Below, one piece after another: positions 1 to 16,439 of a stretch of 64,000 bases of DNA. Numbering within the stretch: position 1 is the stretch's first letter; every line of letters begins with the position of its first letter. The position numbers and the translations under genes were made by a program. Below the pieces are notes generated by a model that searched no databases, was not told the DNA's origin, and saw only the letters and a list, made by a program, of their open reading frames with translations. The stretch is from Variovorax sp. PBL-E5 (lineage in GTDB: Bacteria; Pseudomonadota; Gammaproteobacteria; Burkholderiales; Burkholderiaceae_C): positions 1,116,001 to 1,180,000 of the forward strand of contig NZ_LR594671.1 of assembly GCF_901827185.1 (NCBI RefSeq). The letters run 5' to 3'.

Positions 1-965
1 GGGAATGGCCCGCGGACATCCGCTTCCTGTGCAGCACGCCGATCACCCACGCGACCGGTTGCATGCTGGTGCCGATCCTGAGTCGCGGCGGCACCATCCA
101 TCTGCATGCGGGCTTCGATGCGCGCAAGTTCCTCGCCACGGTGGCGCGCGACCGCATCAACAGCACCTTCCTCGTGCCGACCATGATCTACCTGTTGATC
201 GAGGCGCAGCGCGCGGCGCCGGCCGACACCTCCGCGCTCGAGACGGTCATCTACGGCGGCTCGCCGATCTCGCCCGCACGGCTGGCGGAGGCGATCGCGC
301 TGTTCGGGCCGGTGTTCATGCAGATCTACTCGCAGTCCGAGGCGCCCAACTGCGCGACCGTGCTGCGCAAGAAGGAGCACCAGGGCGGCGTGGCCGGACG
401 CCATGCCTCGTGCGGGCGGCCGCTTCCCGGCATCACGGTGGCGCTGCTCGACGACGACCACCATCCGGTCCAGCGCGGCGACATCGGCGAGATCTGCTTT
501 CGCGGTCCCTCGATCATGCAGGGCTACTGGAACAAGCCGGAAGAGACGGCCGAGACGCTGCGCGGCGGCTGGCTGCACACCGGCGACCTCGCGTTCGAGG
601 ACGGCGAAGGCTTCCTGCACATCGTCGACCGGCGCAAGGAGATGATCGTCTCGGGCGGCTTCAACGTCTATCCGCGCGAGATCGAGGATGTCATCACTGC
701 GCACCCGGCCATCAGCTCGGCCGCCGTCATCGGCGTGCCGGACGGCAAGTGGGGCGAGGCGGTCAAGGCCATGATCGTGCTGCGCGAGGGCGCGACGGTC
801 ACGGCCGGCGAGATCATGCACTGGGTGCGCGAGAAGAAGGGCGCGGTGGCCACGCCCAAGTCGATCGACTTCCTCGATGCGCTGCCGCTCACCGCGCTCG
901 GCAAGCCGGACAAGAAGACCTTGCGCGCCAGGTACTGGGCCGGCCAGCAGCGCCAGGTCAGCTGA
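1..965 (+). CDS. AMP-dependent acyl-CoA synthetase, C-terminal 320 residues (5' end outside window)
   Basis: The reading frame is open from base 3 and ends with TGA at 965. The visible part is the C-terminal portion of an ANL-superfamily adenylating enzyme, which activates a carboxylic acid with ATP and CoA. YSQSEAPN stands in the position of the usual YGxTE motif. GDLAFEDGEGF and the VDRRKEMIVSGGFNVYP stretch form the hinge region, and PLTALGKPDKK near the end carries the conserved catalytic lysine. The acid substrate cannot be read from sequence. The gene lies 4 nt before a Liv-type ABC importer, so it probably activates the acid that this importer brings in (inference). Confidence 0.9.
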   Translation, partial: EWPADIRFLCSTPITHATGCMLVPILSRGGTIHLHAGFDARKFLATVARDRINSTFLVPTMIYLLIEAQRAAPADTSALETVIYGGSPISPARLAEAIALFGPVFMQIYSQSEAPNCATVLRKKEHQGGVAGRHASCGRPLPGITVALLDDDHHPVQRGDIGEICFRGPSIMQGYWNKPEETAETLRGGWLHTGDLAFEDGEGFLHIVDRRKEMIVSGGFNVYPREIEDVITAHPAISSAAVIGVPDGKWGEAVKAMIVLREGATVTAGEIMHWVREKKGAVATPKSIDFLDALPLTALGKPDKKTLRARYWAGQQRQVS

Positions 966-2516: not shown

Positions 2517-3389
2517 ATGGAAGGCTTGCTGCACCAGATCATTTCGGGCATCGCGATGGGTGGCGTCTACGGCGCGCTCGGGCTGGCGGCGGTCATCGTC
2601 TACCAGTCGACCCATCACCTCAACTTCGCGCAGGGCGAGATGGCCATGTTCTCGACCTACATCGCCTGGATGCTGATGCAGGCGGGGCTGCCCCTGTGGG
2701 CTGCGCTGGGCCTCACGCTGGTCGCTGCCTTCGCGACCGGCATGCTGATCCAGCGCTTCGTCATCCATCGCGCGCGCTTCGCACCGGCGCTCACCACCGT
2801 GCTGCTCTTCATCGCGCTGCTGGTGATCTTCAACAGCCTCGCCGGCTGGCTCTTTGGCTACAGCGCGCGGATCTTCCCGAGCCCCTTCGGCAGCGGCCGG
2901 GCGTTCGACAGCGCGCTGATATCCGCGCACGAGCTGGGATCGATCGCTGTGACGCTGGTGCTGGTGGCCGCGCTCTACCTCTTCTTCAACTTCACGAAGC
3001 TCGGCCTCGCGATGCAGGCGACCGCGCACAACCCGATGTCGGCGCGGCTGGTGGGCATCCGCGTCGGCTGGATGCTCGCCTTCGGCTGGGGGCTCGCGGC
3101 CGCGATCGGCGCCGTCGCCGGCGTGCTGGTCGCGCCGGTGGTCTACCTCGACCCGAGCATGATGTCCGGCGTGCTGATCTACGGCTTCGCCGCGGCGCTG
3201 CTGGGCGGCCTCGACAGCCCCTGGGGCGCGATCGCGGGCGGCGTGATCGTCGGCGTGCTCGAGAACGTGCTCGGCGCCTATGTCATCGGCACGGAGCTCA
3301 AGCTGTCCGTGGCGCTGATGCTCATCATCGGCGTGCTGCTGTTCAAGCCCTCCGGCCTGTTCGGCAAGCCCGTGGTCACGAGGGTCTGA
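2517..3389 (+). CDS. livH: Branched-chain-type ABC transporter permease LivH
   Basis: An inner-membrane permease of the Liv importer, 290 residues with about eight hydrophobic segments. The opening GIAMGGVYGALGLAAVIVYQ and the NFAQGEMAM segment are typical of LivH, and the EAA-like cytoplasmic loop lies around QATAHNPMSARLVGI. The C-terminal GLFGK is also typical. An AGGA ribosome-binding site precedes ATG 2517 by about 8 nt. The gene sits between livF and livM. Confidence 0.93.
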   Translation: MEGLLHQIISGIAMGGVYGALGLAAVIVYQSTHHLNFAQGEMAMFSTYIAWMLMQAGLPLWAALGLTLVAAFATGMLIQRFVIHRARFAPALTTVLLFIALLVIFNSLAGWLFGYSARIFPSPFGSGRAFDSALISAHELGSIAVTLVLVAALYLFFNFTKLGLAMQATAHNPMSARLVGIRVGWMLAFGWGLAAAIGAVAGVLVAPVVYLDPSMMSGVLIYGFAAALLGGLDSPWGAIAGGVIVGVLENVLGAYVIGTELKLSVALMLIIGVLLFKPSGLFGKPVVTRV

Positions 3390-3391
3390 AC

Positions 3392-4375
3392 ATGACGGAC
3401 ATCACCGTGTCTTCCCCGCTCGTCGCGCGCAAGCCCGGCGCCGCCGCATGGCTGCTGCCGTGCGCGATCGCCGCCGCGGCGCTGGTCCTGCCGCTGGTCG
3501 CGCCCGGCTTCTACCTGTTCCAGGCCACGCTGGCGATGATCTATGCGATCGCGCTGCTCGGCCTGAACATGCTGGTCGGCTACTCGGGCCAGATCTCGCT
3601 CGGGCACGGCGCCTTTTTCGCCGTCGGCGCGTACACCACCGCGATCCTGGTCGATCACTTCGCGGCGCCCGGCTGGGCCGCGATACCGATGGCCGCGGTG
3701 CTGTGCTTCGTCGTCGGCTTCGCCTTCGGCCTGCCCGCGCTGCGGCTCGAGGGCCATTACCTCGCGCTGGCGACCTTCGCGCTGGCGGTGGCGGTGCCGC
3801 AGCTGCTCAAGTGGAAGGCGCTTGAAGACTGGACCGGCGGCGTGCAGGGCATCCTGCTGGCCAAGCCCGAAGTGCCGGCCGGCCTGCCGCTGTCGCCGGA
3901 CCAGTGGCTCTACCTGTGCGTGCTGGCGATCACGCTGCTGGCCTTCGTGGCGGCGCGCAACCTGCTGGGCGGGCGCCTCGGCCGCGCGCTGGTCGCGATC
4001 CGCGAACAGCCGATCGCGGCGGCGGCGATGGGCGTCGACGTGCCCGGCATCAAGACGCTGACCTTCGGCATCAGCGCGCTCTACACCGGCGTCGCCGGCG
4101 CGCTGAGCGCGATGGTCGTGCAGTTCGTGTCGCCGGACAGCTTCAACTTCTTCCTGTCGATCACGCTGATCATCGGCGTCGTCATCGGCGGCCTGGGCAC
4201 GGTGGGGGGCGCGCTCTACGGCGCCGTGTTCATCCAGTTCGTGCCGAACCTGGTGGACCAGGTCTCGAAGTCCGCGACCTGGGCGATCTACGGCGTGCTG
4301 CTGATCGTCGTGGTGTTCCTCATGCCCTCGGGCATCGAAGGCGCGGTGCGCCGGCTCGTGCGCGGCCGGCGCTGA
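3392..4375 (+). CDS. livM: Branched-chain-type ABC transporter permease LivM
   Basis: The partner permease to LivH, 327 residues. MLVGYSGQISLGHGAFFAVGAY is replaced here by a near-identical run around residues 65-85, and IREQPIAAAAMGVDV is the cytoplasmic coupling loop. ATG 3392 lies 2 nt after the livH stop with GAGGG upstream. It closes the order livG-F-H-M. No periplasmic binding protein (livK/J) is found downstream, so the substrate-binding component must be upstream of the window or elsewhere. Confidence 0.93.
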   Translation: MTDITVSSPLVARKPGAAAWLLPCAIAAAALVLPLVAPGFYLFQATLAMIYAIALLGLNMLVGYSGQISLGHGAFFAVGAYTTAILVDHFAAPGWAAIPMAAVLCFVVGFAFGLPALRLEGHYLALATFALAVAVPQLLKWKALEDWTGGVQGILLAKPEVPAGLPLSPDQWLYLCVLAITLLAFVAARNLLGGRLGRALVAIREQPIAAAAMGVDVPGIKTLTFGISALYTGVAGALSAMVVQFVSPDSFNFFLSITLIIGVVIGGLGTVGGALYGAVFIQFVPNLVDQVSKSATWAIYGVLLIVVVFLMPSGIEGAVRRLVRGRR

Positions 4376-4469: not shown

Positions 4470-5255
4470 ATGGACCAGTTCGAATTGTCGGCCCACCATA
4501 TCAGCGAACTCGAGCACGACATGGGCGCCGCGCCGATGGTCGGCCTGTCCATGGAGATACCGGCGGGCACCACGGTCGAGCCGCACGAGCACGGCCGCGG
4601 CCAGCTGATGTTCTCGAGCTCGGGCGTGATGGTCATCGAGGGCATGGGCGGTTCGTGGGTGGTGCCGCCGCAGCGCGCGGTCTGGGTGCCGCACCACGTG
4701 CGCCACACCTTCCATCCGGCCACCAACCTGAGCCTGCGCAACCTGCTGATCCGCTCCGACGTGGATGTGCCGCTGCCCACCGCCTGCACCTTCGTTCGCG
4801 TCACGCCGCTTTTGCGCGAACTGATCCTGCGCGTGGTCGAGGATCCGTCCACCTTCCGTTCGACCGCGCATCACGAGCGCGCGATCGGCCTGCTGTTCGA
4901 CGAGATCGACGTGTGCCAGGTGGCGCCGTTGTTGCTGCCGCTGCCGCAGGATCCGCGCATCCGCCGCATCTGCATCGCGCTGCGCGAAAACCCGGCCGAT
5001 CCGCGCACCCTCGAAGATTGGGCGGACATCGCCTGCGCCAGTGGCCGCACGCTGACGCGGCTGTTCCTCAAGGAGACCGGCGTGTCCTTCGCGCATTGGC
5101 GGCGGCAGGCGCGGCTGATGGCGGCGATGGTGCGGCTGGGCATGGGCGATTCGGTCACCAGCACCGCGCTGGATGTGGGCTACGAAAGCGCGAGCGCCTT
5201 CATCGAGATGTTCCGCCGCACCATCGGCCAGACACCGGGCCAGTACTTCAACTGA
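4470..5255 (+). CDS. AraC-family transcriptional regulator with N-terminal cupin domain
   Basis: A DNA-binding regulator of 261 residues. The N-terminal half is a cupin-like ligand pocket (EPHEHGRGQLMFSSSG, then GSWVVPPQRAVWVPHHVRH). The C-terminal half, about residues 165-260, holds the two AraC helix-turn-helix motifs: LEDWADIACASGRTLTRLFLKETG, broken here by shorter landmarks, and the typical SASAFIEMFRRTIGQTPGQYF ending. ATG 4470 is preferred to an in-frame ATG at 4437 because GGAG precedes it at normal distance. A TATCAT hexamer lies at 4433-4438. Its likely targets are the GST genes downstream or the liv operon upstream (inference from position only). Confidence 0.88.
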   Translation: MDQFELSAHHISELEHDMGAAPMVGLSMEIPAGTTVEPHEHGRGQLMFSSSGVMVIEGMGGSWVVPPQRAVWVPHHVRHTFHPATNLSLRNLLIRSDVDVPLPTACTFVRVTPLLRELILRVVEDPSTFRSTAHHERAIGLLFDEIDVCQVAPLLLPLPQDPRIRRICIALRENPADPRTLEDWADIACASGRTLTRLFLKETGVSFAHWRRQARLMAAMVRLGMGDSVTSTALDVGYESASAFIEMFRRTIGQTPGQYFN

Positions 5256-5393: not shown

Positions 5394-6428
5394 ATGTCAG
5401 ATCGCTACCGCCTTTACGGCGTCCTCGCCTCGCCGTACGCGGCCAAGTTGCGCGCCTTGCTGCGCTATCGCCACATCCCCTTCGACTGGATGCCGGCCAG
5501 TTTCGACTGGGCGCCCGACTTCCAGCTCGTGCGGCCCGAGCTGGCCGAGGTGAAGCCGCGCATCGTGCCGATCCTCTGGTATCCGCACGACCGCTCCTTC
5601 CACACCGACTCGACCTTCATCGCGCTCGATCTGGAGCAGCTGCATCCGGGCCATCGCTCGGTGGTGCCGGCCGATCCGGGGCTGGCGTTCCTGTCGAACC
5701 TGATCGACGACTTCGGCGACGAGTGGGGCGTGAAGATCGCGTTCCAGTACCGCTGGGGCAACGAGAGCGACCGCAACGCGACCAACCGGCTCGTGATGGG
5801 CGAGCTGCTCGGCGGCGGCGTGGCGCAGGCGACGATCGCGCATGCAGCCGACCAGTTCCGCGACCGCCAGGTGTCGCGCATGCCGCTGGTCGGTGCCACG
5901 CCGCAGAACGCGCCGGTCATCGAGGCCACCTATGCGCGCGTGCTCGATGCGATGAGCCGGCTGCGCGAGACGCAGAGCTATCTCTTCGGCTCGCGCCCGT
6001 CGCTGGGCGACTTCGGTCTGTTCGGCGCGCTCTTCACCTGCCGCAACGATCCGACGCCGGCCGAGATCATGCGGCGCAGTTCGCCCGGCACGCTGGACTG
6101 GATCTACGCGCTCGACGAGGCCTCGGGCGTGCAGGGCGAATGGCTGCCCGATGCCACGGCGCTGCCTGCGGGCGCGATCGACCTGCTGCGCGTCATCGGC
6201 GATGCTTACCTGCCGTTCCTGGTTGCCAATGCAGCGGCGGTCGAACGCGGCGAGCCGACGGTGCGCGTCGAGCTGCTCGGCCGCAGCTACAGCCAGGGCG
6301 CGTTCCGCTACCAGGCCAAGTGCCTGCGCTGGCTGCGCGACGAGTGGCGCGGCCTCGACGGCGCCGCGCGCGAACGCGTCGAACCCGTGCTGCGCGCCAC
6401 CGGCTGCCTCGCCGCGCTGCAACCATGA
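5394..6428 (+). CDS. Glutathione S-transferase family protein, long form
   Basis: A 344-residue protein whose first 80 residues form a thioredoxin-like GST N-domain (YRLYGVLASPYAAKLRALLRY, then a PRIVPILW cis-proline region and a DSTFIALDLE region in place of ES-glutathione binding). The all-alpha C-domain contains the GSRPSLGDFGLFGAL motif (N-capping box). It is about 120 residues longer than ordinary GSTs, with a long C-terminal extension. An RBS (CTGGAGACC) precedes ATG 5394. Its stop overlaps the next GST gene (ATGA). The substrate is unknown; bacterial GSTs of this kind act in detoxification or aromatic catabolism (family knowledge). Confidence 0.85.
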   Translation: MSDRYRLYGVLASPYAAKLRALLRYRHIPFDWMPASFDWAPDFQLVRPELAEVKPRIVPILWYPHDRSFHTDSTFIALDLEQLHPGHRSVVPADPGLAFLSNLIDDFGDEWGVKIAFQYRWGNESDRNATNRLVMGELLGGGVAQATIAHAADQFRDRQVSRMPLVGATPQNAPVIEATYARVLDAMSRLRETQSYLFGSRPSLGDFGLFGALFTCRNDPTPAEIMRRSSPGTLDWIYALDEASGVQGEWLPDATALPAGAIDLLRVIGDAYLPFLVANAAAVERGEPTVRVELLGRSYSQGAFRYQAKCLRWLRDEWRGLDGAARERVEPVLRATGCLAALQP

Positions 6429-7156
6429 CGCTCGCGACCGATGCAGAGGCCACGGCGCCGGACGCCGCGCTCGACCTGCACTACTGGCCCACGCCCAACG
6501 GCTGGAAGATCTCGATCCTGCTGGAGGAACTGGGCGTGCCGTACCGGCTCGTCAAGGTCGACATCCGCCGTGGCGATCAGTTCGAGCCGGCCTACCTGCG
6601 CATCAATCCCAACAACCGCATCCCCGCGCTGGTCGACCATGCACCGGCCGATGGCGGGCCGCCGCTGGCGCTCTTCGAGTCGGGCGCGATCATGATGTAC
6701 CTGGCCGACAAGCACGGCCGCTTCTGGTCCACCGAACTGCGCCGGCGGCACGAGACGAGCCAGTGGCTGATGTGGCAGATGTCGGGCCTCGGGCCGACCG
6801 CGGGCCAGGTGCATCACTTCAACGAATACGCGGCCGAGCCGGTGCCCTACGCGATCGATCGCTTCAACAACGAGATCCACCGGCTGTATGGCGTGCTGGA
6901 GCGCCGGCTGGCCGATCGGCCTTACCTGGCCGGCGACTATTCGATCGCCGACATCGCATGCTGGGTCTGGGTGCGGCTGTGGCGCCATCACCACCTGGAC
7001 ATCGAGACCTTTCCGGCGCTGGCGCAATGGCTGGCCACGATCGCGGCGCGGCCCGCGGTCAACCGCGGCTTCCGCACGGCCAACGAATGGCGCGAAGGCC
7101 GCTCCACCATGACGCCGGAGGCGCGCGCCGTGCTGCTCGGGCAGCGCGCCCGATGA
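6425..7156 (+). CDS. Glutathione S-transferase, YfcG/Nu-like
   Basis: A 243-residue cytosolic GST. The N-domain begins DLHYWPTPNGWKISILLEE. The TPNG element resembles the Thr/Asn that contacts GSH in YfcG/Ure2p-like enzymes, which act as disulfide-bond oxidoreductases. INPNNRIPALVDH is the cis-proline loop and ESGAIMMYLADK the GSH-binding motif. The C-domain contains YSIADIACWVWVRLW. It starts inside the previous stop (ATGA) and ends inside the next start (ATGA), so three genes are translationally coupled. YfcG-like activity is an inference. Confidence 0.88.
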   Translation: MTLATDAEATAPDAALDLHYWPTPNGWKISILLEELGVPYRLVKVDIRRGDQFEPAYLRINPNNRIPALVDHAPADGGPPLALFESGAIMMYLADKHGRFWSTELRRRHETSQWLMWQMSGLGPTAGQVHHFNEYAAEPVPYAIDRFNNEIHRLYGVLERRLADRPYLAGDYSIADIACWVWVRLWRHHHLDIETFPALAQWLATIAARPAVNRGFRTANEWREGRSTMTPEARAVLLGQRAR

Positions 7157-8571
7157 CCGCGCCGCCGACCCTGGAGGTCGACGTTGCCGTCGTCGGCGGC
7201 GGCTCGGCGGGCATGGCCGCCTACCGCGCGGCCGTCGCGGCGGGTGCGCGCACGGTGCTGATCGAAGGCGGCGACTTCGGCACCACCTGCGCCCGCGTGG
7301 GCTGCATGCCGAGCAAGCTGCTGATCGCGGCGGCCGATGCGGCGCATGCGGGCGACACGGCCTCGGACTTCGGCCTGCCGGCGCCTGCGCCACGTGCCGG
7401 CGATGCGCTCGCGGGCGTGATGGACCGCGTGCGGCGCGAGCGCGACCGCTTCGTCGGCTTCGTGCTGCGCGAGGTCGAGGCCTATCCGGCCACCGACAAG
7501 CTTGCCGGTGTCGCGCGCTTCGTCGGCGACCATGTGCTCGTGGTCACGCACGCGAACGGCGATGCGACGCGCGTGCACGCGGGCCGCATCGTGCTCGCCA
7601 CCGGCTCCGTGCCGGTCGTGCCGCGCGAACTCGATGCGGTGCGTGCGCTGTGCCTCACCACCGACAGCCTGTTCGAGCTGCCCCATCTGCCGGCCAGCGC
7701 GGCCATCGTCGGCGCCGGCGTCGTCGCGCTCGAGCTGGGACAGGCCCTGCATCGACTGGGCGTGCGCGTGCGGCTGTTCGGCCGCGGCGGGCGGCTGGGC
7801 GTGCTCACCGATCCCGAAGTGCATCGCCAGGCCTGCGCGGTCTGGGCCGATGCGCTGCCGCTCGAATGCGATGCGCGTGCGGTCTTCCACGCCGATGGCG
7901 GCGAGGTGCGGGTCGACTACGTGACGCGGGACGGCAGCCGGGCGAGCGAGCGCTTCGCCTGCGTCATCGCGGCCGCCGGCCGCGCGCCCAGGCTGCCGGC
8001 CGGCCTCGAGACCACCTCGTGGGGTGCCGCCGTCGCGGCGGGCGCCTGGGGCTTCGACCGCACCACGATGCAGGTCGGCGCCAGCCCGGTCTTCGTTGCC
8101 GGCGATGCGAGCGGCGAGGACAGCCTGCTGCACGAAGCGGTCGACGAGGGACGCATCGCCGGCCGCAACGCCGCGAGCTTTCCGCGCGTGCGCGGTGGCG
8201 AGCGGCGCGCGCGCCTGTCGATCGCATTCACCCATCCGCAGATGGCGATCGTCGGCGGCGGCTGGGCGCTGGCGCAACGCGCGGGCGATGTCGTGGTCGG
8301 CCAGGCCTCCTTCGCCAACCAGGGGCGCAGCCGCGTGATGCTGCGCAACCGCGGGCTGCTGCGCGTCTACGCCGATCGCGCGGGGTTCTTTCTGGGTGCG
8401 GAGATGTTCGGCCCGGATGCCGAGCACCTCGGTCATCTGATGGCGTGGGCGCTGCAGGCGCGCATGCGCATCGACCAGATGCTGTCCATGCCCTTCTACC
8501 ATCCGGTGGTCGAAGAGGGCCTGCGCACCGCGCTGCGCGATGCGCGGCGAAGCGCGCGGACCGAAGCCTGA
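7153..8571 (+). CDS. Dihydrolipoamide dehydrogenase-like FAD/NAD disulfide oxidoreductase
   Basis: A 472-residue class I pyridine-nucleotide-disulfide oxidoreductase. FAD-binding GGGSAG is at 15-20. The redox-active pair lies in GTTCARVGCMPSK, Cys46 and Cys51. A second Rossmann motif (GAGVVALELGQAL) binds NAD(P), and the FAD-contact GDASGED is present. The C-terminal dimer interface has YHPVVEEGL, with the catalytic-base His near residue 450 and a Glu following. It resembles Lpd-type enzymes but has no 2-oxoacid dehydrogenase genes nearby. Coupling to two GST genes suggests reduction of a disulfide or a role in a thiol-dependent pathway (inference). Confidence 0.85.
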   Translation: MTAPPTLEVDVAVVGGGSAGMAAYRAAVAAGARTVLIEGGDFGTTCARVGCMPSKLLIAAADAAHAGDTASDFGLPAPAPRAGDALAGVMDRVRRERDRFVGFVLREVEAYPATDKLAGVARFVGDHVLVVTHANGDATRVHAGRIVLATGSVPVVPRELDAVRALCLTTDSLFELPHLPASAAIVGAGVVALELGQALHRLGVRVRLFGRGGRLGVLTDPEVHRQACAVWADALPLECDARAVFHADGGEVRVDYVTRDGSRASERFACVIAAAGRAPRLPAGLETTSWGAAVAAGAWGFDRTTMQVGASPVFVAGDASGEDSLLHEAVDEGRIAGRNAASFPRVRGGERRARLSIAFTHPQMAIVGGGWALAQRAGDVVVGQASFANQGRSRVMLRNRGLLRVYADRAGFFLGAEMFGPDAEHLGHLMAWALQARMRIDQMLSMPFYHPVVEEGLRTALRDARRSARTEA

Positions 8572-8590: not shown

Positions 8591-10687
8591 TCACTTGCTG
8601 GCGGTCGGCTTGCCGAAGTCCTTCATCTCCTTGTCGAGCAGGTAGGCCCGGATCTCTTCGATCTCCCGCGGCTTCAGGTCGGTGGAAAACGAAGGCATGC
8701 CGCGCGGCTCCCGGCCGTCCGTGACGGTGACCCGGAAAGCCTCGGCGCTGAGGATCATCGGCGAGCGCCGCAGATCGGGAACGAGCCCGCCGCTTTCGCC
8801 GCCTACGCCGTGGCACTTGGCGCAGTAGATGCCGAAGTCCTTGTTGCCGTTCGCGATGACGGCGGCGCCGGCGTCGGTACCGGTCGGTACGCGGTGGCTC
8901 ACCGCCTGCGGCGCGAGGGGCGGCAGCTTGTCGCTGCCGCCGAGCTTGAAGACCAGCAAGCGGCTGACGTTGCGCACGCCCGTGAAGTTGTCGGCCTCGC
9001 CGCCCACCATCGGCGCGCCGCCGCCCCAGCCGGCGAGCAGAGCCACGTACTGATCGCCATCGATCATGTAGGTGGATGCGCTGGCGATGATGCCGGTCTG
9101 CGCATCGAAGTCCCAGAGCGTCTTGCCGGTGTCGGCCGCGTAGGCGACGAACTTGCCGAAGGCATTGCCCTGGAACACGAGGTTGCCATCGGTGACCAGC
9201 GCGCCGCCGTTCCAGACCGACTCGTGCGGCACCTTCCACACCACCTTGCGCTGGACCGGATCCCACGCGATCAGCGCGCCGCTGGCGAAGCTCTTCGGGA
9301 AGGACGTGCCTTCGTAGAAGGCGCTGCCCGTGTTGAAGTTGCTGGGTCGATGGACGAAGCCCGCGCCTTCGTTCTTGTAGGCACCCGCCATCTCCTGGTA
9401 GGGGATATAGACCAGGCCGGTCTTGTGGCTCAGCGCCATCGGCTGCCAGCTGTGCGCGCCATAGGGGCCGGGCCACATGACGATCGGCTTTTTCTCATAG
9501 CGCACGCCCGGCTCTTCCACCGGGCGGCCCGTCTTCAGGTCGACCTTGCTGGCCCACGTCACCTTGCCGACCTTGTCGGCGGACAGCAGCTCGCCGGTCG
9601 CGCGGTCGAGCACGTAGTAGAAGCCGTTCTTCGGCAGCTGCATCAATACCTTGCGCTGCCTGCCCTTGATCTTCAGGTCGGCCAGAACCATGTTCGCGGT
9701 GGCCGTGTAGTCCCAGCTTTCGCCGGGCGTCGTCTGGTAGTACCAGACCAGCTTGCCGGTGGCAGGCCGGATGGCGAGGATCGACGACAGGAACAGGTTG
9801 TCGCCGCCGCCGGGACTGCGGATCTCGCGGTTCCACGGCGATCCGTTGCCGGTGCCGACATAGAGCAGGTCGAGCTCGGGGTCGTAGTTCATGTTGCCCC
9901 ACGCGTTGCCGCCGCCGCCGCCGTTCTTCCAGTAGTTGTCGCCCTTCCAGGTCTTGGCGGCCATCGCGAGTTCTTCGTGTTCGTACGGCTTGGACGGATC
10001 GCCGGGCACGATGAAGAAGCGCCACAGCTGCTTGCCGCTGTTCACGTCGTAGGCCGTGATGTAGCCACGCGCGCCGAAGTCGGCGCCGCTGTTGCCGATC
10101 ACCACGATGTTCTTCATGACCAGCGGCTGGCCGGTGATCGTGTAGGGCTTGGTCCGGTCGACGGTCTGTACCTCCCATGCGACCTTGCCGGTGGCGCGGT
10201 CGAGCGCGACGAGCCGCCCGTCGATGACGCCCACGAACACCTTGTCGCCCCACAGCGCGACGCCCCGGTTGACCGCATCGCAGCAGATGTCCTTCGACAC
10301 CTGCTTGACCGCGCCGGGGTCGTAGTGCCAGATCTCCTTGCCGGTGCGCGCATCCACGGCCATGACGTGGCCCCAGGGCAGCGAGAAGTACATGACGCCG
10401 TCCGCCACCAGCGGCGTGGCCTCGAGGCCCCGATCGGTCGGCAGATCGAGATGCCATGCCAGGCCGAGCTTGGCGACGTTCTTCGCGTTGATCGTCGCGA
10501 GCGGGCTCGAGAAGGTGCCGGTGTAGGTGCGTCCGGCAGCGAGCCACTCGTCGCCGCCTTGCTTGGGCCGGGCAAGATCTTCGCCGCCGATCGGTGTGAA
10601 GCCGGGCGCGGCCATCGCGTGCTGCGGCGCCGCGGCACCCAAGGCCAGCACGGCGGCCAGTACGAATCCGGGTCTGAATGAAGTCAC
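8591..10687 (-). CDS. PQQ-dependent quinohemoprotein alcohol dehydrogenase (PQQ and haem c)
   Basis: A periplasmic enzyme oxidising alcohols, with electrons passing from PQQ to a C-terminal haem c. The protein is 698 residues. The signal peptide is about residues 1-26 (cleavage near HAMA-A). The eight-bladed propeller repeats (ATGKLVWYYQT and similar) follow. The vicinal disulfide is Cys135-Cys136. The catalytic Asp is about 326 in ESWDYTATAN; the residue two further on is Thr, not the Asp that marks lanthanide-type enzymes, so Ca2+ is expected. The haem motif CAKCH is at 622-626, with a Met ligand in RGMPSF. The GTG start is chosen because AAGGAG sits 7 nt before it. It is downstream of the aldehyde dehydrogenase gene (23-nt gap). 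Confidence 0.92.
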   Translation of the reverse strand: MTSFRPGFVLAAVLALGAAAPQHAMAAPGFTPIGGEDLARPKQGGDEWLAAGRTYTGTFSSPLATINAKNVAKLGLAWHLDLPTDRGLEATPLVADGVMYFSLPWGHVMAVDARTGKEIWHYDPGAVKQVSKDICCDAVNRGVALWGDKVFVGVIDGRLVALDRATGKVAWEVQTVDRTKPYTITGQPLVMKNIVVIGNSGADFGARGYITAYDVNSGKQLWRFFIVPGDPSKPYEHEELAMAAKTWKGDNYWKNGGGGGNAWGNMNYDPELDLLYVGTGNGSPWNREIRSPGGGDNLFLSSILAIRPATGKLVWYYQTTPGESWDYTATANMVLADLKIKGRQRKVLMQLPKNGFYYVLDRATGELLSADKVGKVTWASKVDLKTGRPVEEPGVRYEKKPIVMWPGPYGAHSWQPMALSHKTGLVYIPYQEMAGAYKNEGAGFVHRPSNFNTGSAFYEGTSFPKSFASGALIAWDPVQRKVVWKVPHESVWNGGALVTDGNLVFQGNAFGKFVAYAADTGKTLWDFDAQTGIIASASTYMIDGDQYVALLAGWGGGAPMVGGEADNFTGVRNVSRLLVFKLGGSDKLPPLAPQAVSHRVPTGTDAGAAVIANGNKDFGIYCAKCHGVGGESGGLVPDLRRSPMILSAEAFRVTVTDGREPRGMPSFSTDLKPREIEEIRAYLLDKEMKDFGKPTASK

Positions 10688-10694
10688 GTTGAAT

Positions 10695-10700
10695 CTCCTT
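10695..10700 (-). promoter_or_regulatory. Shine-Dalgarno site fixing the GTG start of the quinohemoprotein gene
   Basis: Read on the minus strand this is AAGGAG, 7 nt before GTG at 10687-10685. It selects that GTG over the in-frame ATG at 10726, which would begin inside the end of the aldehyde dehydrogenase gene and add 13 residues before the signal peptide. Confidence 0.8.
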
Positions 10701-10710
10701 TTTTGATGAA

Positions 10711-12204
10711 CTAGTAGGCAAGGCACACGGACTTGATGCGCGTGAAGGCCTCCACGCCGGCGCGTCCCATTTCCACGCCCATGCCGGACTGCTTGTCGCC
10801 GCCGAAGCTGAAGTTCGGATCGATCACCCCGTGCGTGTTGACGTACACCAGACCGGCTCGAATCCTCGGAATCAATCGCATCACTTCGCCGACATCGCGC
10901 GACCAGATGCTCGAGGCGAGGCCGTAGCTCGTGCCGTTTGCCTTGGCCACCAGGTCATCGAGGTCGTCGAAAGGCGTGGCCACCAGCACGGGCCCGAAGA
11001 TCTCCTCCTGCACCACGCGCATGCCGTGCGCCGCGTCCACCAGGATGGTCGGCGGATAGAAGAAGCCGCGCGCGTCGCCGCCGGTGCTGCCCGCATAGGC
11101 GATGCGCGCGCCCTCGGCCACGCCGCCGTCCACGTACTGCGTGACGCGGTCGAGTTGTTTGCGCGAAACCAGCGGTGTCATGCCCGAATCGGGATTCATG
11201 CCGGGACCGCACTGCATGGCGCGGGCGTGCTGCGCGACGCCGTCGAGCACCTCGTCGAAGATCGAGCGGTGCACGTACAGCCTGGAGCCGGCCGCACAGA
11301 CCTGGCCGGCATTGAAGAAGATCGCGCCGGCCGCGCCCGCTGCGGCGAGTGACACGTCCGCATCCTTCAACACCATGAACGGCGACTTGCCGCCCATCTC
11401 GAGCGTGAAGCGCGTGACGTTCTCCAGTGCCGAACGGCCGACGAGCTTGCCGACTTCCGTGGAGCCGGTGAAGGAGATCTTGTCGATGCCCGGATGCATC
11501 GCCAGCGCCGCACCCGCGGTGTGCCCCAGGCCCGTGACGACATTGAGGACGCCCGGCGGCAAGCCGGCTTCCGCGCAGAGTTCGGCGAAGCGAAGTGCCG
11601 TGAGCGGCGTTTCCTCCGCCGGCTTCAGCACCACCGTGCAGCCGGCCGCGAGGGCCGGTGCGATCTTCATCACGGCCAACAGCAGCGGGAAGTTCCAGGG
11701 CACGATCGCGCCCACCACGCCGAGTGCCTCGCGCACGGTGAAGGCGCGATAGGCCGTGCCCTGCGGAAAGGGGATCGACACGTCCACCGTCTGGCCTTCG
11801 AGCTTGGTGGCCCAGCCCGCCATGTAGCGCATGCATTCGGCCGTGTAGGCGATGTCGAGCGCGCGCGCGTAGGTGATGGACTTTCCCTGGTTCAGTGTTT
11901 CGATCTGCGCCAGCTCCTCGGCGTTGTCCTCGATCAGCTGCGCGAGCCTGAGCAGCACGCGCTCGCGGTCGGCGGGCCGCATGGCGCGCCACGGACCCTC
12001 GAAGGCCCGGCGCGCTGCGGCCACCGCGGCATCGATGTCGGCGGCGCCTCCGGCCGGGACTCGGCACAGGACGTCCCCGGTCGCGGGATCGAACACCGGA
12101 AGCGATGCGCCTTCCCGGCTGTCGACGCCGATGCCGTCGATGTGGAGTTGGTGGGTCCGGGCGAGAAAGGAGCGGACCGATTCGAGTGTCTCGACTTGTG
12201 CCAT
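10711..12204 (-). CDS. NAD(P)-dependent aldehyde dehydrogenase
   Basis: A 497-residue ALDH-superfamily enzyme oxidising an aldehyde to the acid. The oxyanion-hole Asn is in PWNFPLLL (about 171), the nucleotide-binding GSTEVGK is near 247-253, the general base is Glu269 (FTLEMGGKSP) and the nucleophile is Cys303 in NAGQVCAAG. The start is ATG 12204; upstream in-frame codons would extend into a non-homologous leader. It is the first gene of a probable two-gene operon with the quinohemoprotein alcohol dehydrogenase, giving an alcohol to aldehyde to acid route across the membrane (periplasmic step, then cytoplasmic step). Specificity is not readable. Confidence 0.92.
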   Translation of the reverse strand: MAQVETLESVRSFLARTHQLHIDGIGVDSREGASLPVFDPATGDVLCRVPAGGAADIDAAVAAARRAFEGPWRAMRPADRERVLLRLAQLIEDNAEELAQIETLNQGKSITYARALDIAYTAECMRYMAGWATKLEGQTVDVSIPFPQGTAYRAFTVREALGVVGAIVPWNFPLLLAVMKIAPALAAGCTVVLKPAEETPLTALRFAELCAEAGLPPGVLNVVTGLGHTAGAALAMHPGIDKISFTGSTEVGKLVGRSALENVTRFTLEMGGKSPFMVLKDADVSLAAAGAAGAIFFNAGQVCAAGSRLYVHRSIFDEVLDGVAQHARAMQCGPGMNPDSGMTPLVSRKQLDRVTQYVDGGVAEGARIAYAGSTGGDARGFFYPPTILVDAAHGMRVVQEEIFGPVLVATPFDDLDDLVAKANGTSYGLASSIWSRDVGEVMRLIPRIRAGLVYVNTHGVIDPNFSFGGDKQSGMGVEMGRAGVEAFTRIKSVCLAY

Positions 12205-12235
12205 GTGTTGTCTCTTGAGTTGCGAAAGCGAAGGG

Positions 12236-12249
12236 TTGGCCGAGGCCAA
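12236..12249. promoter_or_regulatory. Perfect inverted repeat, possible operator in the ALDH/pqqU divergent region
   Basis: TTGGCC-GA-GGCCAA is a perfect 6+6 palindrome 32 bp upstream of the aldehyde dehydrogenase start. On the minus strand it lies just after a weak TAGAGT hexamer (12254-12259), so it would overlap the transcription start. The rest of 12205-12464 holds no better signal than a TAGACT hexamer at 12442-12447 for pqqU. Confidence 0.25.
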
Positions 12250-12464
12250 GCGGACTCTAGATTCCGCCGCGTCGACGGCCGTACAGGGAGCGGGCCAACC
12301 GATCCAGAGATCGTGACAATCGACGCCCCGAAGCTTCGACCTCCGCCTGCGAGGCGCTGCTGTCGTGCCGAGCCATCCGGTGCTGGCAAGTTTTCGATAT
12401 GGATCGGCGCGAATGCGCCAGCCCGCGCCCGGCTCCATGTCTAGACTGCGGAGCCCACGCCGAC

Positions 12465-14621
12465 ATGAACGACACCCACCACTTCCTCCGACGCGCCGTT
12501 TGCGTGCTGCTCGTGCTTGCACTGCATCCCCTGGCCGCTGTCGCGCAGGCGCTGCCATCCAGCCAGGACGAGGCGCGCCCGGACACCTTGCCCGCGGTCA
12601 CCGTCTCGACGCCGCGCGGCGCGGCGCCGCCTTTCGACGTGCCGGGCTCGGTCGACCGTGTGGAGGGCGAGGACATGCGCGACAGCCGGTTGCAGGTGAA
12701 CCTCTCCGAAAGCCTCGGGGCCGTGCCCGGCCTGTTGATCCAGAACCGGCAGAACTACGCGCAGGACCTGCAGCTGTCGGTGCGCGGCTTCGGCGCCCGC
12801 TCGACCTTCGGCGTGCGCGGTGTGCGGCTCTATGTCGACGGCATTCCGGCCACGCTGCCCGACGGCCAGGGGCAGACCTCCAACATCGACATCGGCTCGA
12901 TCGACCATGTCGAGGTCCTGCGCGGCCCGTTCTCCGCGCTCTACGGCAATTCGTCGGGCGGCGTGCTGCAGGTGTTCACCGGGGACGGCGAGGGCGCGCC
13001 GAGGCTGGGCTTTTCGCTGGCCGCCGGCAGCTACGGCACCACGCGGGCCGCGACGCAGCTCGGCGGTTCGTCCGGCGCGATCGATTACCTGCTCAGCGGC
13101 AGTCACTTCGAAATCGACGGTGCACGCGAGCACAGCGCCGCGCGGCGCGACATCGCCAACGGCAAGCTCGGCATCCGGCTGGACGACGGCAGCCAGCTCA
13201 CGCTGATCCTGAACAGCGTGCACCTGCAGGCGCAGGACCCGTTGGGACTGGCGGCCACGGACTATGCACTGAACCCGCATGCGGCCCCGCTCGCGACGCA
13301 GTACGACACGCGCAAGAGCGTGGACCAGACGCAGCTCGGCCTGCTGTACGAACGCCGCATCGATGCCGACAACGCGCTGCGCCTGATGGTCTACGGCGGC
13401 GAGCGAAAGACGACGCAGTTCCAGGCGATCCCGCCTTCGGCGCAGCTCAATCCGCTCAACGCGGGCGCGGTGATCGGCCTCGATCGCGACTACGCCGGCA
13501 TCGACCTGCGCTGGAGCAGCCACCTGCAGCTGGCCGGCCGGCCTTTCGATCTCGTGGCCGGCCTTGCGTACGACGACCTGCGCGAGCATCGCACCGGCTT
13601 CGAGAACTTCATCGGCCCGGCCGCGTCGCCCCTGCTGCTGGGCGTGCAGGGCCGGCTGCGCCGCGACGAGCGCAACGAAGCGAGCAACCTCGATCCCTAT
13701 GTGCAGGGCACCTGGCAGTTCGCCGATCGCTGGACACTCGAGGCGGGTGTGCGCCGCAGCAGCGTGCGCTTCGACTCGCAGGACCGCTACATCGTCGGTG
13801 CCAATGGCGATGGCAGCGGCCGCGCGCGCTACGGGCAGGCGCTGCCGGTGGCTTCGCTGCGCTATCAGCCGACGCGCGATCTCGCGCTCTACGTTTCTGC
13901 GGGCCGCGGCTTCGAGACGCCGACGCTGAACGAACTTTCCTACCGGCCCGATGGCCTCGGCGGACTCAACTTCGCGCTGCAGCCCGCGGTCAGCGAGAGC
14001 GTCGAAGCCGGCGCCAAGGCGCGCCTCGCGGGCGGCCTTCTGACGGCCGCGGTGTTCCAGACACGCACCCGCGACGAGATCGTGACCGACACCAACGTCG
14101 GCGGCCGCGCCACCTACCAGAATGCCGGCCGCACGCGACGCGATGGCTTCGAGCTCGCCTGGCAGCACGAGACCGCGAACCACTGGCGCACGCAACTGGC
14201 CTACACCTGGCTCGATGCGCGCTACCGCGACGCCTTCTGTTCGCCGTCGCCTTGCGTTGCCGGCAACACGGTGGCCGCCGGGAGCCTCATGCCCGGGATC
14301 GCGCGCAATGCGCTGTTCGCTTCTTTCGGCTGGGCGCCGCCCGAGGGTTGGCGCGCCGGCGCCGAGTTGCGCGCGCTCGGCCGCATCCAGGCCAACGACC
14401 GCAACACCGCTGCCGCGCCGGGCTATGCGGTGGTGGCTTTGTCGGCCGGCTACGTCCGGCACTGGCAGCATTGGGAGTTCAACGCCTTCGCGCGCGTCGA
14501 CAACCTCTTCGATCGGCGCTATGCCGGTTCGGTGATCGTCAACGAAGGCAACGCGCGCTACTTCGAGCCCGCACCGGGACGGAACTGGACGATCGGCATG
14601 GGTGGGGCGTATCGTTTCTGA
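12465..14621 (+). CDS. pqqU: TonB-dependent outer-membrane receptor, PqqU/YncD family (PQQ uptake)
   Basis: A 718-residue outer-membrane beta-barrel receptor with a signal peptide (about 1-28), a TonB-box-like segment LPAVTVSTP near 42-50, a plug domain and a C-terminal aromatic residue (YRF). From memory it is strikingly similar to E. coli YncD, now PqqU, the importer of pyrroloquinoline quinone: shared landmarks include NLSESL, QNRQNYAQDLQLS, DGIPAT.PDGQGQTSNID and VLRGPFSALYGN in the plug, and GRGFETPT.NELSYR, IVNE.N.RY.EP.PGRN near the end. ATG 12465 gives the signal peptide. It is divergent from a PQQ-dependent dehydrogenase operon, which fits the assignment independently. No pqqABCDE genes are in the window. 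Confidence 0.87.
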   Translation: MNDTHHFLRRAVCVLLVLALHPLAAVAQALPSSQDEARPDTLPAVTVSTPRGAAPPFDVPGSVDRVEGEDMRDSRLQVNLSESLGAVPGLLIQNRQNYAQDLQLSVRGFGARSTFGVRGVRLYVDGIPATLPDGQGQTSNIDIGSIDHVEVLRGPFSALYGNSSGGVLQVFTGDGEGAPRLGFSLAAGSYGTTRAATQLGGSSGAIDYLLSGSHFEIDGAREHSAARRDIANGKLGIRLDDGSQLTLILNSVHLQAQDPLGLAATDYALNPHAAPLATQYDTRKSVDQTQLGLLYERRIDADNALRLMVYGGERKTTQFQAIPPSAQLNPLNAGAVIGLDRDYAGIDLRWSSHLQLAGRPFDLVAGLAYDDLREHRTGFENFIGPAASPLLLGVQGRLRRDERNEASNLDPYVQGTWQFADRWTLEAGVRRSSVRFDSQDRYIVGANGDGSGRARYGQALPVASLRYQPTRDLALYVSAGRGFETPTLNELSYRPDGLGGLNFALQPAVSESVEAGAKARLAGGLLTAAVFQTRTRDEIVTDTNVGGRATYQNAGRTRRDGFELAWQHETANHWRTQLAYTWLDARYRDAFCSPSPCVAGNTVAAGSLMPGIARNALFASFGWAPPEGWRAGAELRALGRIQANDRNTAAAPGYAVVALSAGYVRHWQHWEFNAFARVDNLFDRRYAGSVIVNEGNARYFEPAPGRNWTIGMGGAYRF

Positions 14622-15257
14622 ATGAGCTTCAAGGATCGACGCGATGCGGGCCGCGCGCTGGCGCAGGCGCTTGTCGCGTGGCGCGGGCAATCCGGTCTGC
14701 TGGTGCTCGCGCTGCCGCGCGGCGGCGTGCCGGTGGCCTGGGAGGTGGCGCGCTTCCTGCGCGCGCCGCTCGATGTGCTGGTCGTGCGCAAGCTCGGCTA
14801 TCCGGGGCAGGAGGAATATGCGATGGGCGCGATCGCTGGCGGTGGCGTGCGCGTGATGGCCGATCCATCCGGTGGCTGGCCGGTTTCGCGCGATGCGCTG
14901 GAGGCCGTGGTTGCACGCGAGGAGGCCGAGCTGTCACGGCGCGAGCAGCACTACCGCGGCGATCGCCCGCCGCTCGTGCTGGCCGGCCGCGTGCTGCTGC
15001 TGGTCGATGATGGGCTGGCCACTGGCGCCACGATGCGCGCGGCTGTCACCGCAGCCCGCGCGGGCGGGCCGCAGCGCATCGTGGTGGCGGTGCCGGTGGC
15101 TTCGCGCGATGCGGTCCGCAACCTGCAGGCCGTGGCCGACGAGGTCGTGTGCGTCCTCACGCCCGAGGACTTCCACGCGGTCGGCCTCTGGTACGCGGAT
15201 TTCACGCAGACCAGCGACGAGGAAGTCTGCCGCCTGCTGCGAGACGGCAGCGGCTGA
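14622..15257 (+). CDS. Phosphoribosyltransferase-family protein
   Basis: A 211-residue type I phosphoribosyltransferase fold protein. ALPRGGVPVAWEVA begins the domain. VLLLVDDGLATGATMRAA, about residues 123-140, is the PRPP-binding loop with the DDG acidic pair. The C-terminal segment ends near FTQTSDEEVCRLL. Members are often annotated as putative phosphoribosyl transferases without known base; no hood domain identifies a substrate. The start ATG follows the pqqU stop with no gap, so it is probably co-transcribed with it. The stop abuts the metK stop on the other strand (TGATCA). Confidence 0.85.
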   Translation: MSFKDRRDAGRALAQALVAWRGQSGLLVLALPRGGVPVAWEVARFLRAPLDVLVVRKLGYPGQEEYAMGAIAGGGVRVMADPSGGWPVSRDALEAVVAREEAELSRREQHYRGDRPPLVLAGRVLLLVDDGLATGATMRAAVTAARAGGPQRIVVAVPVASRDAVRNLQAVADEVVCVLTPEDFHAVGLWYADFTQTSDEEVCRLLRDGSG

Positions 15258-16439
15258 TCAGAGCCCGGCGGCCGCGCGCAGCTTGGCCGCGTTGGCCGTG
15301 CTTTCCCAGGTGAACTCGGGCTCCTCGCGGCCGAAGTGGCCGTAGGCCGCGGTCTTGCCGTAGATCGGGCGCAGCAGGTCGAGCATCTGGACGATGCCCT
15401 TCGGGCGCAGGTCGAAGTGTTCCTGGATCAGCGCGGCGATCTTCTCGTCGGAGATCACGCCCGTGCCTTCGGTGTAGACCGTGACGTTCATCGGCCGCGC
15501 CACGCCGATCGCGTAGGCGACCTGGATCTGGCACTGGCGCGCGAGGCCGGCGGCGACGATGTTCTTGGCCACGTAGCGCGCGGCATAGGCGGCCGAGCGG
15601 TCGACCTTGCTCGGGTCCTTGCCCGAGAACGCGCCGCCGCCGTGCGGGCAGGCGCCGCCGTAGGTGTCGACGATGATCTTGCGGCCGGTGAGGCCGCAGT
15701 CGCCCTGCGGGCCGCCGGTGACGAAGCGGCCGGTCGGGTTGATCAGGTACTTGGTTTCCTTCAGCCACTCCTTGGGCAGCACCGGCTTGATGATCTCCTC
15801 GATGATGGCCTCGGTGAACGAGGCCTTCATCCTGGTCGGCGTCTCGCTCTGGTCGGGATGGTGCTGCGTGGAAAGCACCACGGTGTCGATGCTGTGCGGC
15901 TTGCCGTCGACGTAGCGCATCGTGACCTGGCTCTTGGCATCGGGCCGCAGGAAAGGCAGCCGGCCGTCCTTGCGCAACTGGGCCTGGCGTTCGACCAGGC
16001 GGTGCGCGTAGTAGATCGGCGCGGGCATCAGCTCGGGGGTTTCGTCGCAGGCGTAGCCGAACATCAGGCCCTGGTCGCCGGCGCCGGTGTTGAGGTGGTC
16101 GTCGCTCGCATGGTCGACGCCCTGTGCGATGTCGTTGGACTGCTTGTCGTAGCAGACCATGACGGCGCAGCCCTTGTAATCGATGCCGTAGTCGGTGTTG
16201 TCGTAGCCGATGCGCTTGATGGTGTCGCGTGCGACCTGGATGTAGTCGACATGGGCGTTGGTGGTGATCTCACCGGCCAGCACCACGAGGCCGGTGTTGG
16301 TCAGCGTCTCGGCGGCGACGCGCGAGCGCGGGTCCTGGGCAAAGATCGCATCGAGAATCGCGTCCGAGATCTGGTCGGCGACCTTGTCGGGGTGGCCTTC
16401 GGAAACGGATTCGGAAGTGAAGAGAAAGTCGTTCGCCAT
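15258..16439 (-). CDS. metK: S-adenosylmethionine synthetase
   Basis: Makes S-adenosylmethionine from ATP and methionine in the cytosol. The 393-residue length is normal. It starts [23 protein letters not shown], shown here only as landmarks: SEGHPDK with the ATP-contact His, [12 protein letters not shown] (the methionine/K+ loop) and [17 protein letters not shown] near 270-285. Its ATG has no strong RBS. The upstream 160 bp (16440-16600), shared with a divergent acyltransferase gene, show no recognisable SAM or SAH riboswitch. Confidence 0.98.

Follow-up and report, generated by a model that had tools for sequence, protein, structure and literature searches.

Among the bacteria that carry PqqU, the TonB-dependent outer-membrane receptor for pyrroloquinoline quinone (PQQ), 23% also make PQQ, and Escherichia coli, from which PqqU (YncD; PDB 9c4o and 6v81) is known, is without pqq biosynthesis genes; the only synteny reported for pqqU is with the pqq operon, in four Burkholderiales genomes (PMC12124388, in the sections available to us). 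Clusters that group a PQQ dehydrogenase gene with a TonB receptor gene are already described in other phyla: the xoxF3 clusters of Acidobacteria and Gemmatimonadetes hold yncE and a TonB receptor, which the accessible part of the paper does not state to be PqqU (PMC10875860). In the excerpts available, the literature matches listed for Variovorax and PQQ contain nothing about PqqU. Here we describe a locus of Variovorax sp. PBL-E5 (assembly GCF_901827185.1) in which a pqqU-type gene stands divergent from an operon for an aldehyde dehydrogenase (ALDH) and a PQQ-dependent quinohemoprotein alcohol dehydrogenase (ADH). It lies in a stretch of 64,000 nucleotides of contig NZ_LR594671.1, hereafter the window (C1:1116001-1180000 of the genome). 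The arrangement resembles the xoxF3 clusters in the grouping of dehydrogenase and receptor genes, although those belong to other phyla and to another dehydrogenase type, and it differs from the neighbourhood of E. coli pqqU, which is flanked by mcbR and yncE. As in other genomes that combine PqqU with PQQ synthesis, both pqqU and a pqq cluster are present, far apart on the chromosome; here pqqU adjoins a quinoprotein operon. We consider it highly probable that pqqU is a PQQ importer carried by most of the genus, beside which the ADH operon arrived on a catabolic island of about 15.7 kb, and that, since the strain also carries pqqABCDE, the receptor recaptures leaked PQQ and takes up that of the community.

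The receptor gene (12465..14621, plus strand) encodes 718 aa with a signal-peptide-like start; a second in-frame ATG lies upstream, at 12399. The NCBIfam PqqU model NF041535 matches the protein with 930.7 bits over 670 of its 676 positions, the next model reaching 179.9 bits. The structure PDB 9c4o, entitled 'Pyrroloquinoline quinone transporter', is matched at E=1.6e-224, the YncD structure is likewise among the closest solved ones, and E. coli PqqU is 52% identical over nearly the whole length; such scores are far above what chance would give. At the PQQ contacts (Q84, F99, Q121, K274, R304, Q308, Q310, R365, N477, Y481 and R536) all 11 positions tested are kept, even K274 and R536, which are less conserved, and the only change relative to E. 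coli is a Phe in place of Tyr99. These 11 are the contacts named in the available sections of PMC12124388, whereas the structure has 12; one contact printed once as N447 was taken as N477, as E. coli PqqU has Asn477 and Trp447. The PqqU signature given in the same sections, Tyr, Phe or Trp at 99 together with Arg304 and Arg365 (Munder et al. 2025, PMC12124388), is present as F, R and R, and all 87 other receptor matches at the level of the order likewise carry it (89 loci, two of them repeats). E. coli BtuB, FecA, FhuA, FepA and CirA (5/5) lack the triple, as do four of four TonB receptor paralogues of the same genome, the alignments of such distant proteins being rough.

A maximum-likelihood tree was built from 28 receptors. 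Nineteen of its rows are PqqU sequences, namely the window receptor, E. coli PqqU and 17 homologues out of the 29 fetched by then, and they group in a single clade with support 99/98, apart from BtuB, FecA, FhuA, FepA and CirA; inside it, the window receptor belongs to a five-row clade with E. coli PqqU (98/99). Among the named loci, the receptors closest to that of the window come mostly from Variovorax, with 78% identity at best, and the receptor is present in 54 of the 60 other genomes of our genus sample at 64-80% identity; this sample comprises 61 genomes with that of PBL-E5, some of them incomplete, and the sample of the order comprises 300. By sequence, tree position and binding-site residues, the product of 12465-14621 is a PqqU-type TonB receptor. 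The first-pass annotation, which had been made from the letters of the window alone, had proposed this family and had named a grouping with siderophore or vitamin receptors as the outcome that would speak against it. The model match, the tree and the contact positions uphold the family, and that grouping did not occur. Its coordinates and gene calls for the receptor and for the ALDH and quinohemoprotein ADH facing it were right on re-checking.

Concerning the operon, ALDH (10711..12204, minus strand, 497 aa) is the first gene and is followed after 23 bp by the ADH gene (8591..10687, minus strand, 698 aa with a signal-peptide-like start), both being transcribed away from the receptor. ADH exceeds the cut-off of TIGR03075 (605.5 bits against 480.05) and comprises a PQQ propeller (PF01011) and a C-terminal cytochrome c domain (PF13442). 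Its best solved relative is the type II quinohemoprotein ADH of Pseudomonas putida HK5 (ADH-IIB; PDB 1kv9, 900.7 bits, E=5.8e-270), which is 59% identical over 93% of the query and shares the cytochrome c domain, the vicinal Cys pair and CXXCH. Model, domains and structural match thus agree with the earlier call of an operon for ALDH and a PQQ quinohemoprotein ADH. The motifs comprise the vicinal pair CC at 135, the haem-binding CAKCH at 622 and SWDYT at 324; the Thr of the latter stands where, as we take it, lanthanide enzymes carry a second Asp, and presumably points to a Ca2+ enzyme. With propeller, cytochrome c, vicinal Cys and an Asp without a second Asp two residues on, the protein is a member of ADH-IIB (qbdA-like). 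It stands somewhat apart: among the matches listed (120 of 2575), Variovorax sp. SRS16 (99% identity) is followed by Xenophilus azovorans (81%), a JGI protein (78%) and Bradyrhizobium (75%), after which identities are 61% or less. ALDH carries PF00171 and resembles phenylacetaldehyde dehydrogenase: it scores 685 bits with the StyD model, below the cut-off of 850, and its best PDB match is the phenylacetaldehyde dehydrogenase 4o5h (591.6 bits). The position of the ALDH gene directly upstream is presumably that of the P. putida HK5 operon, whose name we take to be qbdBA. The term 'qbdBA' does not occur in the literature matches listed, and a query for ADH IIB and P. putida HK5 led to phenol hydroxylase regulation only. 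Unlike the ADH described here, PedE and PedH are not known to have a cytochrome domain. The PBL-E5 genome has a closer analogue of ped elsewhere, near pqq, where a second locus carries ExaC- and ExaA-type genes. In the part of PMC12997753 available, the ped cluster of Pseudomonas likewise joins a PQQ ADH to an NAD(P)-dependent aldehyde dehydrogenase in peripheral alcohol oxidation.

An ortholog of ADH was found in none of the 60 other genus genomes, where the best match is 51% identical, and no match at E<=1e-220 was found in the 299 other genomes of the order, at most three candidates being scored per genome. Among 72,556 plasmid records, 25 match, the best with 59% identity (a Stutzerimonas plasmid), and no carrier was identified. 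PqqU, for its part, is matched by 984 records of the plasmid collection, some of them chromosome-sized, and in only 25 of them does a single place cover 80% or more of the query; Rahnella megaplasmids annotated with pqqU are among these 25, e.g. NC_015062.1 (Rahnella aceris).

No pqq genes lie in the window, as had been noted before; a search of the whole genome, proposed as a check at the time, recovered the full set 2.85 Mb from the locus. The single matches to pqqA (C1:3978633) and pqqC (C1:3979774) both fall outside C1:1116001-1180000, and pqqB, C, D and E follow pqqA in one cluster (L015 6770-9946), all above the NCBI curated cut-offs. The core peptide of pqqA carries an E-x-x-x-Y motif, which we take to be the canonical one. 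Near the pqq cluster lie an ExaC-type acetaldehyde dehydrogenase, above cut-off, and an ExaA-type PQQ ADH, and a membrane-bound PQQ dehydrogenase is encoded at C1:3060903, so that there are two further quinoproteins besides the window ADH. The ExaA-type enzyme carries SWDFD, with what we assume to be the second Asp of lanthanide enzymes. A TonB receptor of 852 aa, whose gene is separated from pqqE by about 8 kb and from that of the ExaA-type dehydrogenase by 4.3 kb (L016 3730-6288, minus strand; C1:3989730-3992288), lacks the PqqU signature.

The earlier suggestion that the strain may scavenge the cofactor therefore does not hold as a need: with pqqABCDE and two further quinoproteins, PQQ scavenging is an option for this strain. 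An obligate scavenger would combine a quinoprotein with the absence of pqq biosynthesis, which is not the combination found here. The idea that the strain is a PQQ auxotroph dependent on PqqU draws on the absence of pqq genes from the window and on those genus genomes, 28 of 61, that have pqqU without pqqC (in our counts pqqC represents the pathway as a whole), 23 of which have a PQQ dehydrogenase from one of the two families covered by the search. It is hardly credible in view of the single cluster with all five genes, pqqA with its core motif among them. Among the other five genomes with pqqU only, which have no such dehydrogenase, three are incomplete.

Across the genus, pqqU occurs in 55 and pqqC in 33 of the 61 genomes; 27 have both, 28 pqqU only, 6 pqqC only and none neither (Fisher p=0.027, kinship ignored). 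This complementarity supports PQQ import as the function of the receptor in the genus. At the level of the order, pqqU-like genes were found in 85 of the 300 genomes, TIGR03075 genes in 74 and pqqC in 59, and pqqU-like genes co-occur with the other two more often than expected. Neither pqqC nor TIGR03075 was found in 42 of the 85, TIGR03075 being the sole quinoprotein family covered by this search. In these searches, up to three receptor and four dehydrogenase candidates were scored per genome and the best 96 dehydrogenase places were used; Poisson and Fisher values are rough, as the genomes of the samples are related.

The neighbourhood of pqqU offers a different picture in genus and order. 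Of the 55 genus genomes with pqqU, only that of PBL-E5 has a TIGR03075 (methanol/ethanol-family) gene within 5 kb, and only one other (G335) has a GDH-type gene nearby, at 3950 bp; pqqU and a dehydrogenase share a contig in 16 (TIGR03075) and 15 (GDH-type) of the 55. Among 80 named pqqU loci, 59 of which have 5 kb on both sides, a GDH-type quinoprotein gene lies within 5 kb in five and one of the ADH type in none. A pqqU-quinoprotein module conserved across the genus is thus not what we observe. In the order, at least 7 of the 42 genomes with both genes, from three families, have pqqU no more than 5 kb away from a listed TIGR03075 gene, against 0.44 expected; the figure is a lower bound, given the 96 dehydrogenase places used, and is 6 of 41 without PBL-E5. 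In one of them (L186, G056:C1:2064000-2073000) pqqU is divergent from an ALDH-ExaA-type operon in the layout of the window, with non-orthologous enzymes, and in two others pqqU is co-directional with a quinohemoprotein ADH gene, in the order receptor then ADH (G133) and ADH-ALDH-receptor (G218). Likewise, 14 of the 30 genomes with both pqqU and pqqC have the two no more than 10 kb apart (0.21 expected), in six families, one of which accounts for seven of the 14. This number exceeds the four Burkholderiales genomes given in the available sections of PMC12124388, where the criteria differ. In such receptors beside pqqC (e.g. L181, L192, L193, L195, L197 and L210), the residue at the position of K274 is Glu in L181, Arg in L192, L195 and L197, and Leu in L210.

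A recurrent linkage of pqqU with quinoprotein genes is therefore real in the order, and the linkage at the window locus is not common to the genus. The first-pass annotation had held that the genomic link backs the assignment to the family independently of similarity and had suggested a tabulation of pqqU within 5 kb of PQQ-dehydrogenase genes. Of this argument a weaker, general form survives, namely that pqqU stands beside PQQ dehydrogenases above chance across the order. At the window locus it fails, where PBL-E5 is alone in the genus sample for TIGR03075 and where the link is tied to an island occupying the place of the usual cluster.

What relatives keep upstream of pqqU is different. Among 13 loci with called gene order, drawn from the 80 fetched, nine have a TonB receptor, a PepSY protein and a protein of 61-71 aa before pqqU, preceded in seven of these nine by a PLD-domain (cardiolipin-synthase-like) gene; the other four (L069, L074, L075 and L084) are arranged otherwise. 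A PepSY gene lies just upstream of pqqU in 18 of the 80 named loci, the rest being other genera, other arrangements or short contigs, and the cluster of TonB receptor, PepSY_TM and 66-aa protein precedes pqqU in many Variovorax loci, e.g. L053, L054 and L064. The PLD-domain gene of PBL-E5 ends about 3.2 kb before the window begins, which is also as far as the alignment of its genome with L053 and L064 extends; homology to L053, L054 and L064 restarts only inside pqqU, at 12553-12593. The catabolic island of about 15.7 kb thus sits where relatives keep their cluster, of which a search of the window and of the adjoining 40 kb on the left found no remnant (no match with an E value under 0.2). To the right of pqqU, the flank is one common to relatives: a phosphoribosyltransferase gene (14622-15257, plus strand), found in some of the named loci, and metK (15258-16439, minus strand), with MetK of at least 80% identity in 22 of the 80.

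The island begins to the left of the window, with genes for a periplasmic binding protein and a CoA-transferase and with the start of an acyl-CoA ligase gene (PF00501, PF13193; from L157 19397), the 3' part of which occupies 1..965 (plus strand). There follow, all on the plus strand, two branched-chain-type ABC transporter ATPases (970-1758 and 1755-2477; PF00005 and PF12399 in each), two permeases of the same transporter type (2517-3389 and 3392-4375; PF02653 in each), an AraC-family regulator (4470..5255; PF12833), two glutathione S-transferase (GST)-like genes and a dihydrolipoyl-dehydrogenase-like flavoprotein (7153..8571; NF004939, 561.5 bits, cut-off 435), which is convergent with ADH. 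The first GST-like protein (5394..6428, 344 aa) has weak GST_N_3 and GST_C_2 matches just above the Pfam cut-offs and no solved-structure relative in the PDB at E<=0.001; the other (6425..7156) is YfcG-like, with GST Pfam domains and a match to YfcG (PDB 5hfk) at E=1.5e-76. In X. azovorans (L069), a block from GSTb to the CoA-transferase gene, which makes up most of the island, lies inverted directly before pqqU, at 79% and 77% DNA identity, and the 344-aa GST-like gene stays with the YfcG-like one; the contig ends inside GSTb, so that the position of its ADH gene (81% identical protein) is unseen. Since the island sits in the place of the relatives' cluster and no ADH ortholog was found in the genus and order samples, the pairing of ADH operon and pqqU appears best explained by insertion of the island or replacement by it, and we infer an insertion in this lineage rather than a loss in the relatives.

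Several observations weigh against the interpretation as a resident PqqU receptor beside an arrived island. In the receptor tree the outgroup branches are long, as the program warns, the root is set at the midpoint, and one other receptor of the genome, on a very long branch, attaches beside the PqqU clade. The score of 930.7 bits falls short of the equivalog cut-off of NF041535, 1200 bits, and the NCBI rule would not name the protein PqqU automatically; none of the 300 order genomes reaches this value, and it therefore looks tuned to enterobacteria. At the ends of the island, repeats that could account for an insertion or inversion are absent, only matches of 10-16 bp being found (best E=0.036), and the 40 kb left of the window hold no tRNA gene. 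Finally, the excess of quinoprotein genes within 5 kb of pqqU in the order means that the view of the adjacency as a mere by-product could be wrong. That the receptor imports something else, be it a siderophore, cobalamin or another carboxylated quinone, nevertheless seems very improbable to us. The unreached cut-off would agree with it, and TonB receptors often switch their ligand, global similarity alone being a poor guide (PMC12124388, in the sections available); on the other hand, all contact positions tested are kept, K274 and R536 included, the receptor shares a clade with E. coli PqqU, and each of the 61 genus genomes has pqqU or pqqC.

A further possibility is a functional capture, in which the end of the island provides a new divergent promoter region, pqqU is now induced together with the ALDH-ADH operon by the substrate of the island, and the pair forms a real module of cofactor supply and use. 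The intergenic region (12205..12464, 260 bp) does not resemble the DNA that precedes pqqU in 11 relatives: local alignment scores are 17-24, against a mean of 20.4 and a maximum of 28 in shuffled controls. This agrees with a capture, as do the missing cluster of the relatives, the 7 of 42 order genomes with neighbouring genes, and the divergent (G056) and co-directional (G133, G218) arrangements elsewhere. However, a search for promoters of the sigma-70 type found none at 12150-12520, the inverted island of X. azovorans puts its CoA-transferase gene and not the ADH operon next to pqqU, and in the 54 other pqqU-carrying genomes of the genus sample no TIGR03075 gene lies within 5 kb of pqqU. A shared promoter of the sigma-70 type was rejected, given the lack of a sigma-70-like site and of conserved DNA upstream of pqqU. 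We regard the capture as possible, though rather unlikely. Somewhat more doubtful still is its extension, namely that mobile alcohol-oxidation islands land beside resident pqqU genes, replace their promoter region and make PQQ import inducible by the alcohol of the island, such units having been assembled several times from non-orthologous parts in Burkholderiales.

If the receptor is a resident PQQ importer and the operon a later arrival, as we prefer, the components would act as follows. PqqU, powered by TonB, would bind free PQQ, probably without a metal, to judge from the Lys that corresponds to E. coli K274, and release it into the periplasm, where, together with Ca2+, the PQQ would turn the quinohemoprotein ADH into its active form. 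This enzyme would oxidise an alcohol and pass the electrons on via its own cytochrome c domain; the cytoplasmic ALDH would then oxidise the aldehyde, and the acid may be activated by the CoA ligase or the CoA-transferase of the island. Periplasmic alcohol oxidation with imported PQQ, as first suggested, is mechanistically sound. The ADH operon would have reached the side of pqqU on the island now found in place of the usual upstream cluster, and pqqU would provide the strain's quinoproteins, including the island ADH, with PQQ recovered from the cell's own leakage and from neighbours, without being their only source.

With this locus, a PqqU whose predicted binding site is intact is placed in a Variovorax-type bacterium equipped with PQQ biosynthesis genes as well. 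The locus also illustrates that a striking divergent gene pair can stem from an island, and that a comparison with relatives has to precede any use of linkage as functional evidence. The simple pattern in the genus, with pqqU, pqqC or both in 61 of 61 genomes, makes the sharing of PQQ testable within one soil genus.

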